Below are positions 7,666 to 22,917 of a DNA stretch of 29,972 nucleotides, piece by piece; within the stretch, counting starts at the first letter, position 1, and each line of letters starts with the position of its first letter. The DNA is taken from assembly GCA_021828345.1 (NCBI GenBank), contig JAJZJI010000007.1:1-29972 (forward strand). Direction: 5' to 3'. This DNA comes from Microcaldota archaeon. Its GTDB lineage: Archaea > Micrarchaeota > Micrarchaeia > Micrarchaeales > Micrarchaeaceae. The notes beneath the pieces were generated by a model that did no database searches, was not told where the DNA came from, and was given only the letters and a program-made list of their open reading frames with translations. A program made the position numbers and the translations under genes.

Positions 7666-7750
7666 AACTATCCCATATTCAGTTAATAATATAACTCTAT
7701 TTGAATAAAAAGCTATAAAGCATTTCTCTATTAGAAATAATAACATATTT

Positions 7751-7835
7751 GCAGGGATGGCGGAGTCTGGTCAATCGCGCAAGGCTTAGGACCTTGTGCC
7801 TTAGGGCTGCGAGAGTTCAAATCTCTCTCCCTGCA
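7751..7835 (+). tRNA. tRNA-Leu (anticodon UAG)
   Basis: The acceptor stem GCAGGGA pairs with TCCCTGC, with discriminator A and no encoded CCA. The anticodon stem CAAGG/CCTTG holds loop CTTAGGA, anticodon TAG at 7785-7787. A long variable arm and a T-arm with TTCAAAT complete a class II tRNA. A tyrosine recombinase gene follows directly, making this the likely integration target. Confidence 0.95.
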
Positions 7836-7856
7836 TCTCAAATTTACGAAGTCAAA

Positions 7857-8705
7857 GTGGGGTTCGGAAATCCGAAACGGAAATCTTCAAGAAGGGAAGA
7901 TTTCAATAGGTTTTCCGACAACCTCAAGCAGGTGTCAATGAGCGTCTCATGGCACCAGTTACAGCAGTTGCAATCAGTATTGCACAAGATCCAAACCAAG
8001 AGGTTTGCCGGAAAGAGGAAGACGCCGAAATATGGCTCGCTCTCAAAGGCGTTTTCCGACATGCAGCTTCAAAGGTTCCTTCACGTTATAGACTCTGACA
8101 AGTTCCGCCTCCTATTCATCTATCAGGCGCAGCTTGGGCTTAGAATAGGCGAGGCAGTCAGGGTAAACATAAACTCAATAGACCTAGAAACTAGGGAACT
8201 TACATTGAAGACCGAGAAGGCTCGGGTAATGGACTCGTTATTGATACCGATGCCGCTGTTCAAGGATACCATAGCCTTCATCTCGAAGCACAAGGCTGAG
8301 ATTGAGAAGGCGCAGGGATACCTATTCTATGCGGATAAGCTGAGAACCAAGCGGTCGGTACCATTCTTAGAGCAAAACTACGTGCGCAACAGGTTCAGGC
8401 ACTATGTGCGACTGGCGGAGTTGGACGAGGTATACGATACCTCAGACGAAACCAACCCTAACAGGAGCGTAAGGCACCTCCATAGGCTGACCACGCATAG
8501 CCTTAGGCATTACGCAATAACCCGTTTCGCCAAACAGACAAACGGGAATCTGGTTCTGACAAGCAGGTTCGCAAGGCACAGCGATCCAAGCACCACAATG
8601 ACCTACATTACCACACGCAAAGAGGAGCTATACAAGGAGATAGACAGCACATTCGGGCTGAGTGAAGCAGTTGGCCTGAAATCAAGATTGACTAGAAATG
8701 CCTAA
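7857..8705 (+). CDS. Tyrosine recombinase / integrase (XerA-like)
   Basis: Site-specific DNA recombinase. The catalytic set is complete: Arg in LGLRIGEAVR, His and Arg in HSLRHYAITR, His in RFARHSDPS, and nucleophilic Tyr in TTMTYITT. The ATG at 7938, with GGTG three bases upstream, gives 255 aa. A GTG at 7857 gives 282 aa, closer to archaeal XerA length, and the intervening codons look coding. The frame actually remains open back through the whole tRNA-Leu gene, as in elements whose integrase overlaps the attachment site. It converges with the relE-like gene, with stops 3 bp apart. Composition differs from neighbouring host genes, indicating transfer. Confidence 0.9.
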   Translation: MGFGNPKRKSSRREDFNRFSDNLKQVSMSVSWHQLQQLQSVLHKIQTKRFAGKRKTPKYGSLSKAFSDMQLQRFLHVIDSDKFRLLFIYQAQLGLRIGEAVRVNINSIDLETRELTLKTEKARVMDSLLIPMPLFKDTIAFISKHKAEIEKAQGYLFYADKLRTKRSVPFLEQNYVRNRFRHYVRLAELDEVYDTSDETNPNRSVRHLHRLTTHSLRHYAITRFAKQTNGNLVLTSRFARHSDPSTTMTYITTRKEELYKEIDSTFGLSEAVGLKSRLTRNA

Positions 8706-8708
8706 AGT

Positions 8709-9104
8709 CTATCTTTTTCTGTAGCCGAAGATTTTGTCGTATTCATCATGGTCTATTATATCCAGCACGTCTAGCCAGATTGAGAGTATCTCAACTTCTG
8801 TGTCCTCCCTCTGCGGTTGCTTTATTGTGTAGATCATGCGCCAAGCTCCTGAGAGATTGACCTTCCATAAGTTCGTAACTTCATAGAGCGAGATGTACTT
8901 CTGAGCTACATTCTTCTTTGGTATGTGGATTCCATAGTCATAATCAACCTTCAATATTGCTATCTTGTTGTCTATTGACTTAAGGAGCGTTTGGTGAAAC
9001 GAGTCGGTTATGCCTTTTGCTGCATCCTCCGCAACTTTCTTCTTTAGCGCTAGGTAAGCGTCTTTTGCATCTCCTAACAGTTTTATTGAAACGCGTTTCT
9101 CCAC
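8709..9104 (-). CDS. RelE/ParE-type toxin
   Basis: About 131 aa of the RelE/ParE fold as found widely in archaea: the segments GIHIPKKN, VTNLWKVNLSGAWRMIYTI, VEILSIWLDVLDI and DHDEYDKIFGYRKR match the family's core and C-terminus. By family, it would cleave mRNA at the ribosome or inhibit gyrase; which one cannot be told here. There is no ATG at the expected start. GTG at 9104 (or TTG at 9107) lies just after the partner's stop at 9112, so translation is probably coupled. The frame continues upstream through the partner gene without an obvious start. Confidence 0.85.
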   Translation of the reverse strand: MEKRVSIKLLGDAKDAYLALKKKVAEDAAKGITDSFHQTLLKSIDNKIAILKVDYDYGIHIPKKNVAQKYISLYEVTNLWKVNLSGAWRMIYTIKQPQREDTEVEILSIWLDVLDIIDHDEYDKIFGYRKR

Positions 9105-9111
9105 CAAAACA

Positions 9112-9378
9112 TCACATCGGTAAGCCCTCTTGTTCGGCCTTCTCCAGCTTCTTGCTAGGGTTGAATGTCCAAATAAACCCTTTCTTAGTCTCAAGCACCA
9201 TCCCACGCTTTTCCATGTAGTCAAGCGCAAGGTTCAGGGTCGAGCGCATTACACCAGTCTGCAATCTGGCCAATATCTGGTTCCTGCTGACGGGGTTATT
9301 GGCCTTCTTCACTACCTCCTCTATAGCCAGTATGGTCTTAAGCGTAGGGTAATGGACAACTTCCTTTTGGATTTGCAT
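9112..9378 (-). CDS. Small winged-helix DNA-binding protein, probable antitoxin
   Basis: 88 aa. The segment PVSRNQILARLQTGVMRSTL reads as a helix-turn-helix, followed by ALDYMEKRGMV and the wing-like GFIWTFNPSKKL. Small proteins of this kind commonly sit upstream of RelE in archaeal genomes, and here the gene precedes the toxin by 7 bp. The start at 9378 has GGTG 7 nt upstream. Direct repeats in its promoter suggest autoregulation. The antitoxin role is inferred from position. Confidence 0.75.
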   Translation of the reverse strand: MQIQKEVVHYPTLKTILAIEEVVKKANNPVSRNQILARLQTGVMRSTLNLALDYMEKRGMVLETKKGFIWTFNPSKKLEKAEQEGLPM

Positions 9379-9385
9379 AATATAA

Positions 9386-9420
9386 CACCTAATAAGTATA
9401 TACCCTAATAGATATATAAG
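9386..9420 (-). promoter_or_regulatory. Promoter and possible operator of the toxin-antitoxin pair
   Basis: On the plus strand, CCTAATA occurs at 9388-9394 and 9404-9410, spaced 16 bp, next to a TATATAT element at ~9412-9418. This is the arrangement expected for an autoregulatory operator between TATA box and start codon. Confidence 0.4.
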
Positions 9421-9462
9421 CCTTTCTACACATTTGGAGGTCTCTTTACATGGCCAAAATTC

Positions 9463-9586
9463 CTCTACATGACTTTGGCAATCCATGTAGAGAAAAGTCT
9501 CGACGACAGCCCAAAAACATCGTTTTTTGTCGATGAACTACTGCGCATCATTATTTTAGCGTTTCATGTAGAGACGCCATGTAGAG
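9463..9586. repeat. Four copies of a 9-bp repeat CATGTAGAG
   Basis: Copies lie at 9463-9471 (inverted), 9484-9492, 9565-9573 and 9578-9586. The first two form an inverted pair. The last two are direct repeats 13 bp apart, each followed by a related pentamer. Degenerate versions occur near 9446. Confidence 0.75.
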
Positions 9587-9592
9587 TCTCCA

Positions 9593-9642
9593 ACTAAAGA
9601 CCTCCAAGCGACTAAAGACCTAAGCTCGAAAAGGTCTTTAGT
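9593..9642. repeat. Iteron-like 11-bp repeats ACTAAAGACCT with inverted copy
   Basis: Direct copies at 9593-9603 and 9611-9621, then the exact inverse AGGTCTTTAGT at 9632-9642. The last two form a perfect 11-bp stem with a 10-nt loop. Related pieces recur at 9438 and 9712-9732. Confidence 0.75.
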
Positions 9643-9646
9643 ACGC

Positions 9647-9665
9647 CTTCGACGAGAAGTCGAAG
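9647..9665. repeat. Inverted repeat CTTCGAC / GTCGAAG
   Basis: A perfect 7-bp stem with a 5-nt loop (GAGAA), directly after the 11-bp iteron hairpin. Confidence 0.55.
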
Positions 9666-9711
9666 CCAGCCCGAATTTCACGAGGGACTTCTAACCATCA
9701 AAGAAGGGCGT

Positions 9712-9732
9712 AGACCTCTTTAGTTGAGGTCT
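9712..9732. repeat. Inverted repeat AGACCTC / GAGGTCT
   Basis: A perfect 7-bp stem with a 7-nt loop. It reuses the GACCT and TTTAG pieces of the upstream iterons. Confidence 0.55.
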
Positions 9733-9824
9733 TAAGTAGCCTCCGCCCGCCTTTAAGACACCTTTGTGTGTCGCACGGCGGGCTACGGCTGCTGCAGCTA
9801 CTTCGTAGGACATGGCGGCGTTAA

Positions 9825-9858
9825 GGCTGATTTTGACCCCCCCACCGCAAAATCAGCC
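9825..9858. repeat. 11-bp hairpin with C-rich loop
   Basis: GGCTGATTTTG (9825-9835) pairs perfectly with CAAAATCAGCC (9848-9858) around a 12-nt loop that begins A and then seven Cs. It is the strongest hairpin in the block. A structured RNA, an origin hairpin or a terminator are all possible. Confidence 0.65.
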
Positions 9859-9997
9859 GCTTGCTAGGTTGCTAGCTTGCAGACCGTTGGACTATTAGTT
9901 TACCGTAAGGAACTAAGTTTTGAATGTGCCGGCGTAGCTTAATGATGTATAAAATTAACATAAATATTTATGCAGGGTAATGTTTTAAGTGCATAAT

Positions 9998-18000: not shown

Positions 18001-18036
18001 ATTATTATCATTCAATTATAGTAATATCGTGTGTTA

Positions 18037-18330
18037 ATGGTAGCTATTAATGATGTTATAGTGGCGCTTAAGCTCTGCAAGGATCCGGAACTTGATGCAA
18101 ATATAGTTGATATAGGGCTAATTTATGGCATAGATATATCCCAATCTGTAGTAAAATTAACAATAACTATGACATCACCCATGTGTCCTGTGACAAGTAT
18201 AATACTTGCTGATGCGCAACTCAGGCTTGAATCTATCAATGGGATTGGAAAGGTAGAGATAGATCTTGTTTGGGATCCATTATGGAACCCTGAAATGATG
18301 AGCGATGATCTTAAGTATCGCGGAATATGA
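18037..18330 (+). CDS. MIP18/DUF59 (SufT/PaaD-like) protein
   Basis: 97 aa. Family members help assemble or deliver iron-sulfur clusters. The core DPELDANIVDIGLIYGIDI, then LTITMTSPMCPVTSII with the conserved Cys of the T-x-P-x-CP motif, and VEIDLVWDPLWNPEMMSDD are all typical. The ATG at 18037 was chosen; a GTG at 18031 would add two residues. The window holds at least two putative [4Fe-4S] enzymes it might serve (IspG and the glycosylase), which is inference. Confidence 0.9.
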   Translation: MVAINDVIVALKLCKDPELDANIVDIGLIYGIDISQSVVKLTITMTSPMCPVTSIILADAQLRLESINGIGKVEIDLVWDPLWNPEMMSDDLKYRGI

Positions 18331-18452: not shown

Positions 18453-18479
18453 TTCTGATTGAATGAATTCTGTGATTCA

Positions 18480-19049
18480 ATGGCAACAGATGCAGGAAGA
18501 ACTTCAAATAAACATGGGCAGGAGCTCATGAGCAAAATGGTACTTTCAACAAAGAATGTTGGCTTTTCGCAAAGGGATAATAAGCAGGTGAATGGCGGAG
18601 AGTTAGTAATGCGTACCGAAACATATGATATAAAGACATCACGAACAACACAGTTCATTGATATAACTGATGTAGTTAAAAGGTGCGTTGCTGAAAGCGG
18701 TATGAAAAATGGCCATGTTGTTGTATTTACAAAGCATACAACAGCCGCAATAAGAATCCAGGAGAATGAGCCAGAGCTGCTTAGGGATTTTGTAGATTTT
18801 CTAGAGCGTGTTGCTCCAGAGGCGCATCCATACCATCATAACAATTTTGGTATACGAACTGCAAACATGACAAATGATGAATGTCCAAATGCACATGCAC
18901 ACTGCAGGCATCTGCTTATGGGTAGCAGCGAGACAATACCTGTAATAGACGGAGAGATAACCTTAGGTGTATGGCAGAGAGTATTTTTTATAGAACTTGA
19001 CAGATCAAGAAATAGATCGGTAATGATACAAGCAATAGGACAAAAATAA
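18480..19049 (+). CDS. YjbQ/UPF0047 family protein
   Basis: The family core runs from TSRTTQFIDITDVV through FTKHTTAAIRIQENEPELLRD, HPYHHNN, CRHLLMGSSETIPVIDGEI and LGVWQRVFFIELDRSRNRSV. Its conserved His/Glu cluster is intact, and some members have weak thiamin-phosphate-synthase activity; the cellular role is uncertain. The usual length is ~135-145 aa, matching the ATG at 18609 (with GGAG upstream). However, the frame is open with coding-like composition from the ATG at 18480, giving a ~43-residue polar N-terminal extension. I annotate the longer form. Confidence 0.88.
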   Translation: MATDAGRTSNKHGQELMSKMVLSTKNVGFSQRDNKQVNGGELVMRTETYDIKTSRTTQFIDITDVVKRCVAESGMKNGHVVVFTKHTTAAIRIQENEPELLRDFVDFLERVAPEAHPYHHNNFGIRTANMTNDECPNAHAHCRHLLMGSSETIPVIDGEITLGVWQRVFFIELDRSRNRSVMIQAIGQK

Positions 19050-21626: not shown

Positions 21627-21663
21627 TTTATTTATAAGATAAACAAATTATTGGGTGGATATA
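21627..21663 (+). promoter_or_regulatory. TATA box and GGTG site deciding the ispG start
   Basis: TTTATTTATAAG lies at 21627-21638. GGTG at 21654-21657 is 6 nt before a GTG at 21664, favouring that codon over the GTG at 21655. Confidence 0.5.
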
Positions 21664-22917
21664 GTGGTAATTATACAAAATAAGACTAATCATGTAAGTA
21701 GATATAAACGGAGAAGAAGTTTGCAGGTTCGGGTGCGAAATATGTATATAGGCTCTGAGCATCCTGTTGCATTGCAAAGCATGACAAATACTGATACGAG
21801 CAATGTGGATAAGACTGTAGAACAGATATTGGAATTATATAATGCCGGCTCTGAGTTAGTGCGTTTTACAATCCAGAATTTATCTATGGCAAGATCTGTG
21901 GTCGATATAAGAAAAAAGATTGACAGCATGGGGCTAGATATACCATTAATAGGAGATTTTCATTATAATGGTCATTCATTATTAAAGGACGTGCCAAGCT
22001 GCGCAGATGCATTGGATAAATATAGAATAAATCCGGGAAATGTAGGATTTGGGGAGAAGCATGATAATAATTTTAAGCAGTTTATAGCGCTTGCAATAGA
22101 TCATGATAAACCGGTAAGAATAGGGGTAAATTGGGGGTCATTAGATCCATCAGTACTTACAATATTAATGGACAGAAATATGAAGGACGGCTCGCCAAAG
22201 AGTGCGCGTGATGTTACAATAGATGCGGTAGTTGAGAGTGCGGTTCAATCGGTGCATAAAGCAATAGAATATGGACTCTCTCCAGATAAGATTATAGTTA
22301 GTACTAAGATATCTGAGGTTCCTGAAATGGTGCATGCATATGAGATGCTTGCATCACGAATAGAACAACCCTTGCATTTAGGATTAACAGAGGCTGGAAT
22401 AGGTAGTAAGGGCATAGCAGCATCCAGTGCGGCGCTGTCACAGCTGCTTGTTAAGGGCATTGGAGACACTATACGTGTATCACTAACGCCAACGCCTGGC
22501 TCTAGTAGATCTGAGGAGGTTATAGTGGCAAAGCAGATACTACAATCACTTGACATCAGGCATTTTACTCCTCTTATTATAAGTTGTCCCGGATGCGGAA
22601 GAACTACATCTACAGGATTTCAGGAGCTTGCAGAATATTTGACAAAATATTTAGAGATACAGATGAAGGAATGGAAAAAATCAGGGTATAAGGGCGTTGA
22701 GGAGATGAAGGTTGCTGTAATGGGCTGCGTTGTCAATGGCCCAGGTGAGAGCAAGTACGCAAACATAGGGATATCACTTCCTGGAAGCGGAGAGGATCCA
22801 GTGTGTATGATATATGAGGATGGGAAGCAGGTTGATACTACACGAATATCTGAGGCGAAGGATAAATTTAAGAACAGGCTTGAGATGTATGTGAAGAGCC
22901 ATTACTCAAAAGAGTGA
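21664..22917 (+). CDS. ispG: (E)-4-hydroxy-3-methylbut-2-enyl-diphosphate synthase (IspG/GcpE)
   Basis: Converts MEcPP to HMBPP, the sixth step of the MEP isoprenoid pathway, with a [4Fe-4S] cluster. The TIM-barrel part shows PVALQSMTNTDT, YRINPGNVGFGEK, VRIGVNWGSLD and QPLHLGLTEAG. The cluster-binding part has SCPGCGRT (Cys308, Cys311) and MGCVVNGPGE (Cys355, Glu362), so all ligands are intact. The 417-aa length equals the bacterial single-barrel type. The start is GTG. Archaea normally make isoprenoids by the mevalonate route, so this gene suggests transfer from bacteria. No ispH or dxs lies nearby. Confidence 0.95.
   Translation: MVIIQNKTNHVSRYKRRRSLQVRVRNMYIGSEHPVALQSMTNTDTSNVDKTVEQILELYNAGSELVRFTIQNLSMARSVVDIRKKIDSMGLDIPLIGDFHYNGHSLLKDVPSCADALDKYRINPGNVGFGEKHDNNFKQFIALAIDHDKPVRIGVNWGSLDPSVLTILMDRNMKDGSPKSARDVTIDAVVESAVQSVHKAIEYGLSPDKIIVSTKISEVPEMVHAYEMLASRIEQPLHLGLTEAGIGSKGIAASSAALSQLLVKGIGDTIRVSLTPTPGSSRSEEVIVAKQILQSLDIRHFTPLIISCPGCGRTTSTGFQELAEYLTKYLEIQMKEWKKSGYKGVEEMKVAVMGCVVNGPGESKYANIGISLPGSGEDPVCMIYEDGKQVDTTRISEAKDKFKNRLEMYVKSHYSKE

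Follow-up and report, generated by a model that had tools for sequence, protein, structure and literature searches.

An IspG gene in a Micrarchaeota order in which the methylerythritol phosphate pathway appears to run without DXS and recurs with YjbQ proteins

The DNA analysed here, a stretch of 29,972 nucleotides from contig JAJZJI010000007.1 of a Microcaldota archaeon (the window), carries an ispG (gcpE) gene, for which a second in-frame GTG at 21664 was the start used in the initial annotation (the coordinates of all features are collected in Table 1). The encoded protein scores 418.9 bits against NF001540 (cut-off 345) and 367.8 bits against TIGR00612 (cut-off 280.25), both equivalog models for IspG, and 360.3 bits against Pfam GcpE (cut-off 32), and its best solved chains, the IspG entries 4s38 and 2y0f, align over residues 19-418. 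Membership of the IspG/GcpE family is recognised by a full-length match above a curated cut-off together with three cysteines and one glutamate, and the protein shows both, with Cys311 and Cys314 in the motif SCPGCGRT, and Cys358 and Glu365 in MGCVVNGPGE, four residues that we take to be the cluster ligands. The earlier description of the gene as a complete IspG with all four ligand residues therefore stands, and, judging from its sequence, the protein almost certainly has IspG activity, converting 2-C-methyl-D-erythritol 2,4-cyclodiphosphate (MEcPP) to 4-hydroxy-3-methylbut-2-enyl diphosphate (HMBPP) in the methylerythritol phosphate (MEP) pathway.

The distribution of the other MEP genes was assessed in 148 genomes of the order, all of them drafts, including the genome to which the window belongs (the source genome; 731,914 bases in 83 contigs, 77% complete). 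IspG is found above cut-off in 16 of the 148 genomes and IspF in 13, the source genome included in both cases; IspH is found in 16, being split in the source genome into two pieces at contig ends, and Dxr in 17, among them the sister species G001. An IspG match in G029 (16.9 bits) and a Dxr match in G238 (23.5 bits) fall below cut-off and were left out of the counts, and a contig-wide scan with the IspG query gave no confirmed loci. The genes ispG, ispH and dxr occur together in 14 genomes, eight of which also have ispF, and in relatives they form the clusters dxr-ispH-ispG and ispD/ispE/ispF. An NCBIfam check of a sample placed Dxr, IspH, IspF and IspD above cut-off, with IspE as best family slightly below it; IspD is above cut-off in G021 and G101, ispD and ispE having been read from the neighbourhoods of MEP genes and not from an order-wide search. 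Since MEP genes (dxr, ispF and ispH) recur alongside ispG, an isolated or host-fed IspG with some other role, which the initial annotation had considered, was dropped as the main explanation. Its other proposal, that a whole MEP route had been acquired, holds for dxr, ispF, ispG and ispH, which were searched for and found, and for ispD and ispE as seen in the neighbourhoods, but apparently not for the first enzyme, DXS, of which no true copy was detected in the order. In what follows, the 18 genomes with dxr, ispG or ispH are called MEP-bearing and the remaining 130 are the others, among which the ispF-only genomes G032, G050 and G131 were placed.

The mevalonate route, judged from HMG-CoA reductase alone, shows the opposite distribution. 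The reductase is present in 69 of the 148 genomes, in two of the 18 MEP-bearing ones (full length in G055, a fragment in G138) versus 67 of the 130 others (Fisher p 0.0017; kinship is ignored in this and the other co-occurrence p value), and it was not found in the source genome. This check for mevalonate genes, made with one enzyme, is in line with the MEP pathway very probably being the isoprenoid route of the lineage, and the pathway would replace the mevalonate pathway in part of the order.

PF13292, the N-terminal DXS model, gave weak matches in 127 of the 148 genomes (best 51 bits), mostly in proteins of the size of E1 or transketolase. The full DXS model TIGR00204 (cut-off 466) was applied to 25 genomes, namely the 18 MEP-bearing ones and seven from outside the order. 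None of the 18 MEP-bearing genomes reaches the cut-off, the best score of 109 bits belonging to a transketolase-like half in G017, whereas all seven genomes outside the order, which belong to the same phylum and have Dxr above cut-off, carry a true DXS (703-820 bits). We hold it highly probable that DXS is not present in the MEP-bearing genomes of the order. There is a slim chance that it was missed through divergence or gaps, as the 18 genomes are drafts of 55 to 97% completeness; however, the same search returned none of 18 inside the order and seven of seven outside it, and PF13292 likewise has no strong match across the 148 genomes. In a published account (PMC12892359), the Micrarchaeales MEP pathway is called complete and dxs is the gene not horizontally acquired; a thiamine-diphosphate enzyme annotated as dxs would explain this claim.

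If DXS is absent, 1-deoxyxylulose 5-phosphate (DXP), the substrate of Dxr, would be made by other means. A resident thiamine-diphosphate enzyme, similar to pyruvate dehydrogenase E1 or a split transketolase, might form it as a side activity, the YjbQ proteins described below then having a different role. PF13292 matches of E1 or transketolase size do occur in 16 of the 18 MEP-bearing genomes, and a mutant aceE yields DXP in Escherichia coli, but wild-type aceE did not rescue that organism (PMC3424233). In addition, similar matches are present in 111 of the 130 other genomes, so that such enzymes do not track the MEP pathway, and the linkage of YjbQ to MEP genes would be left without explanation, which makes this source of DXP rather unlikely in our view.

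The family that does accompany the pathway is YjbQ/UPF0047. The 39 stretches used for neighbourhood clustering were picked around MEP matches, so that MEP genes head the family clusters by design; after Dxr, IspG and IspH, YjbQ is the commonest family in them. The window itself encodes a YjbQ protein of 196 residues (123.7 bits against TIGR00149, cut-off 67.75, with a match to PF01894 too), which is present with the same flanking genes in G001 (L172). PF01894 is found in 25 of the 148 genomes, in 17 of the 18 MEP-bearing ones (not in G138) versus eight of the 130 others (p 2e-15), some of the genes being masked by antisense open reading frames (ORFs) in simple gene calling and recovered by profile search. 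Two of these eight, G050 and G131, have ispF, and with the ispF-only genomes counted as MEP-bearing the figures become 19 of 21 versus 6 of 127. In 12 of the 17 genomes YjbQ lies within 10 kb of an MEP gene on the same contig (the source genome, G012, G021, G035, G039, G055, G091, G095, G101, G125, G133 and G142), next to ispG, next to ispH, in the gap between dxr and ispH or next to ispE-ispF, and in the other five (G001, G007, G013, G017 and G111) none lies within that distance.

In 14 of the 18 MEP-bearing genomes there are two divergent YjbQ units, encoded either by tandem genes (G007, G012, G021, G035, G091, G095 and G142) or by one fusion (G017, G039, G055, G101, G111, G125 and G133). 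One half keeps a Glu and a Trp (as W-Q in 11 of the 14, as W alone in G017, G039 and G055) and has lost HTT and N-G-x-x-H; the second half lacks the W and retains Y-x-H and N-G-x-x-H, together with HTT in the case of the fusions. Members of the family with solved structures exist, and this division of the motifs would suit an active site to which both subunits contribute. The window YjbQ and its counterparts in G001 and G013 carry all canonical motifs in one chain. Against TIGR00149, the copy in L101 scores above cut-off, and an A copy and a fusion fall just short of it. A contig-wide scan with a YjbQ-B alignment gave five loci in genomes already counted, with an MEP gene near four of them (not L191). 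PMC7954711 counts the YjbQ of E. coli among the proteins of unknown function, and no tie of YjbQ to the MEP pathway or to RuBisCO appeared among the literature matches listed.

A search for the RuBisCO family, aimed at testing for a 5'-methylthioadenosine (MTA)-isoprenoid shunt, revealed a RuBisCO-like protein (RLP) in four of the 18 MEP-bearing genomes (the source genome, G017, G091 and G095), always beside a canonical YjbQ; RuBisCO-family proteins are present in five of the seven tested genomes outside the order. Reading of the loci added YjbQ-RLP in G050 and G131, giving six genomes in total. The gene order is MtnA-YjbQ-RLP in G017 and YjbQ-RLP-MtnA with MtnP adjacent in G091, G095 and, strand-rearranged, G050; YjbQ and RLP overlap in the source genome (C16), where of the shunt genes only RLP with YjbQ was seen, and adjoin in G131. 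Thus MtnA is near YjbQ-RLP in four genomes and MtnP in three (G050, G091 and G095). The RLP scores far below the cut-offs for RuBisCO III and MtnW, and its nearest solved relatives are the chains of Chlorobium tepidum RLP and Rhodopseudomonas palustris RLP2. As an observation apart, G280, a genome outside the order with a true DXS, has a YjbQ gene directly before that of a second, shorter RuBisCO-family protein (L198).

In Rhodospirillum rubrum, a shunt to DXP begins with MtnP, MtnA and RLP and has a cupin as its fourth enzyme (PMC4958253, PMC5893883). Such a shunt, with RLP and cupin, could in principle make DXP throughout the order, and the MtnP, MtnA and RLP genes do stand together in G050, G091 and G095. 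This is nevertheless quite improbable, given that RLP is limited to four of the 18 genomes, that it is nearest to Photo-type RLPs and may not be of the R. rubrum (DeepYkr) kind, and that no cupin of the 5-methylthioxylulose 5-phosphate (MTXu-5P) methylsulfurylase type was noticed in the loci read, no search for cupins having been made. The loci of G050, G091 and G095 resemble the R. rubrum shunt in having MtnP, MtnA and RLP and in that a DXP product would feed Dxr. The differences are that the RLP is nearest to those of C. tepidum and R. palustris (RLP2), that YjbQ is found where the cupin would be expected, and that the occurrence is patchy, YjbQ with RLP having been seen in six genomes.

We name YjbQ/UPF0047 proteins as the best candidates for the supply of DXP because the divergent pair or fusion occurs with the MEP genes in most of the genomes and the canonical YjbQ adjoins RLP in six. 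YjbQ would free DXP from a 1-substituted xylulose 5-phosphate produced by RLP; alternatively, with 5'-deoxyadenosine as the feed, RLP itself would form DXP and YjbQ would be a supporting step, as on chemical reasoning DXP would result directly if 5-deoxyribulose 1-phosphate underwent the same 1,3-isomerisation. Downstream, IspG would convert MEcPP to HMBPP within a horizontally acquired MEP pathway. That the protein has IspG activity, that MEP is the route of the lineage and that DXS is missing is, taken jointly, likely. That YjbQ is the DXP-forming enzyme is a tentative proposal, less likely than not, drawn from sequence comparison, and it is equally tentative that the divergent YjbQ A/B heteromer, and the canonical YjbQ with RLP, constitute a new DXP-forming system in place of DXS.

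Several observations weigh against this reading. YjbQ is found in 113 of 301 genomes across the phylum and is common without MEP genes, so that its mere presence is not diagnostic, and no YjbQ pair was found in the source genome, G001, G013 or G138. The occurrence of RLP is patchy at four of 18, and R. palustris RLP2 had no detectable activity on 5-methylthioribulose 1-phosphate (MTRu-1P) (PMC5893883). HMG-CoA reductase and MEP genes coexist in G055. Of the 14 genomes that combine ispG, ispH and dxr, six yielded no IspF, including some that are more than 90% complete, and all the genomes are drafts. Dxr was not found in the source genome and is known within the genus only from G001, IspE was not seen in the loci read for this genus, and the gene beside its ispF is IspD-like at just 38 bits, below every cut-off. 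This degenerate IspD-like protein seemingly lacks the N-terminal nucleotide motif that is usual in IspD. With IspD at this level, IspE not seen and Dxr only from G001, the MEP pathway in this genus may be diverged or decaying.

Alternatively, the cells might import DXP, 1-deoxyxylulose or an intermediate further along the pathway from a host or neighbour, and the pathway would start there. The genomes are small, DPANN archaea are mostly thought to be host-dependent (PMC12892359) and no clear IspD or IspE was seen for the genus. Uptake is nonetheless distinctly unlikely, as Dxr is retained in 17 of the 148 genomes and the YjbQ pair would have no explanation.

Earlier work describes the MEP pathway for Micrarchaeales, Norongarragalinales and Zaosheniarchaeales (PMC12892359) as well as for Woesearchaeota (PMC8204110), and the present case is similar in that bacterial MEP genes were horizontally acquired by DPANN archaea. 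The presence of these genes in Micrarchaeales is thus already known, and the novelty lies in the start of the route: unlike in the account of a complete pathway with dxs, the MEP-bearing genomes of the order yielded no true DXS and YjbQ recurs with the genes, which would qualify the published claim. Among bacteria, 181 species have an MEP pathway without Dxs, the replacement being unknown for 172 of them (PMC10663253). The downstream genes are present and Dxs was not found in both situations; the difference is that here the organisms form an archaeal order and a candidate family is linked to the pathway. The YjbQ proteins share the fold family of YjbQ/UPF0047 by sequence, and the canonical copies retain every motif, whereas the pair or fusion near MEP genes has the motifs split across its halves. 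The coincidence of the DXS gap with a linked family of unsettled function makes the question testable, and the findings point to archaea drawing lipid precursors from a bacterial route. If YjbQ does supply DXP, a widespread family would gain its main function and the operation of MEP without DXS would be answered for this lineage.

As regards the origin of the gene, a tree of 135 rows pairs the window IspG with P0002 (83% identical) within a Micrarchaeota group, and the next large group, where the few names are 'archaeon', Proteobacteria and Acidobacteria, is 57-59% identical. IspG had been presented as an anomaly in an archaeal genome; in this lineage it is largely an established gene, judging by the 16 genomes, the tree and PMC12892359. 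The neighbours are archaeal as claimed, an NCBIfam scan having identified archaeal-type Spt5, aRF1 and Orc1/Cdc6 in the window, which also encodes IF2B/IF5-domain, TRM5-type, ScpA and ScpB proteins. A contaminant or assembly chimera might account for the G+C content of ispG (0.405, against 0.348 for the window), but has next to no chance of being correct, considering the 83% identical partner inside the Micrarchaeota group, the IspG proteins of 15 relatives and the gene order upstream of ispG, which is common to G001 as far as the Nramp gene at which the G001 contig ends. Neither the tree nor the gene order hints at a chimera, which the present evidence does not support. The IspG of G013 is very different and sits on a long branch; the MEP genes of this genome, spread over three contigs (L107, L108 and L130), were perhaps acquired separately.

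Table 1. Positions of the features in the window and in genomes of the comparison
Feature	Location	Strand	Remarks
ispG (gcpE)	window 21655..22917	+	420 residues, GTG start; NCBIfam and Pfam above cut-off; collinear with solved IspG chains
Stretch with Cys311, Cys314, Cys358, Glu365	window 22585..22749	+	residues conserved in alignment with solved chains
YjbQ/UPF0047	window 18459..19049	+	2.6 kb upstream of ispG; TIGR00149, PF01894
DUF59-type protein	window 18031-18330		3.3 kb upstream of ispG
Phage-integrase-family ORF	window 7749-8705		
tRNA-Leu	window 7750-7837		
Region of higher G+C	window 7749-9990		
IspD-like protein beside ispF, genus of the source genome	L120 10424-11086; L112 5126-5503		very weak to family models
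6-phosphogluconate-dehydrogenase-like	L097 7302-8219; L098 11889-12830; L099 7338-8300; L102 10032-10937; L105 14565-15488; L122 9859-11247; L174 10174-11001		
Proline-dehydrogenase-like	L100 5926-6777; L110 5716-6567; L096 3683-4537; L130 11263-12117; L123; L126		
YjbQ gene and shorter RuBisCO-family protein, G280	L198 6180-7639		
HMG-CoA reductase, G055	C1:34338-35504		

The DUF59-type protein had been pointed out upstream of ispG, and it is indeed there; of the neighbours, however, YjbQ, which the initial annotation had not mentioned, is the one found repeatedly with MEP genes. The DUF59-type protein has the same place in G001, and with nothing further in its favour it was set aside as a special partner of IspG. 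In G055, the single genome carrying both routes, the full-length HMG-CoA reductase gene lies about 6 kb from the fused YjbQ, ispE and ispF (L116, G055:C1:33500-53000).

Seven genomes have a gene similar to 6-phosphogluconate dehydrogenase in the vicinity of MEP or YjbQ genes, those in L102 and L174 being above a family cut-off and those in L097 and L122 well below; a ribulose 5-phosphate route through this gene possibly feeds the supply of DXP. Six of the MEP stretches encode a proline-dehydrogenase-like protein, whose gene immediately follows ispG in L100 and L110, and the best match of the L100 copy is ProDh_Thermus, far below cut-off.

The IspG P0083 and the RLP P0269 each come from a contig of 13,034 bases, possibly the same one. 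The window reaches further than contig C38 of the source genome (21,492 bases) on either side, so that the window and the source-genome set represent separate assemblies, or differently cut versions, of the same DNA. Elsewhere in the window, the phage-integrase-family ORF overlaps the tRNA-Leu gene and is followed by two ORFs with no Pfam match; the G+C content of this region is 0.462, against the 0.348 of the window, and it looks like an element integrated at the tRNA.
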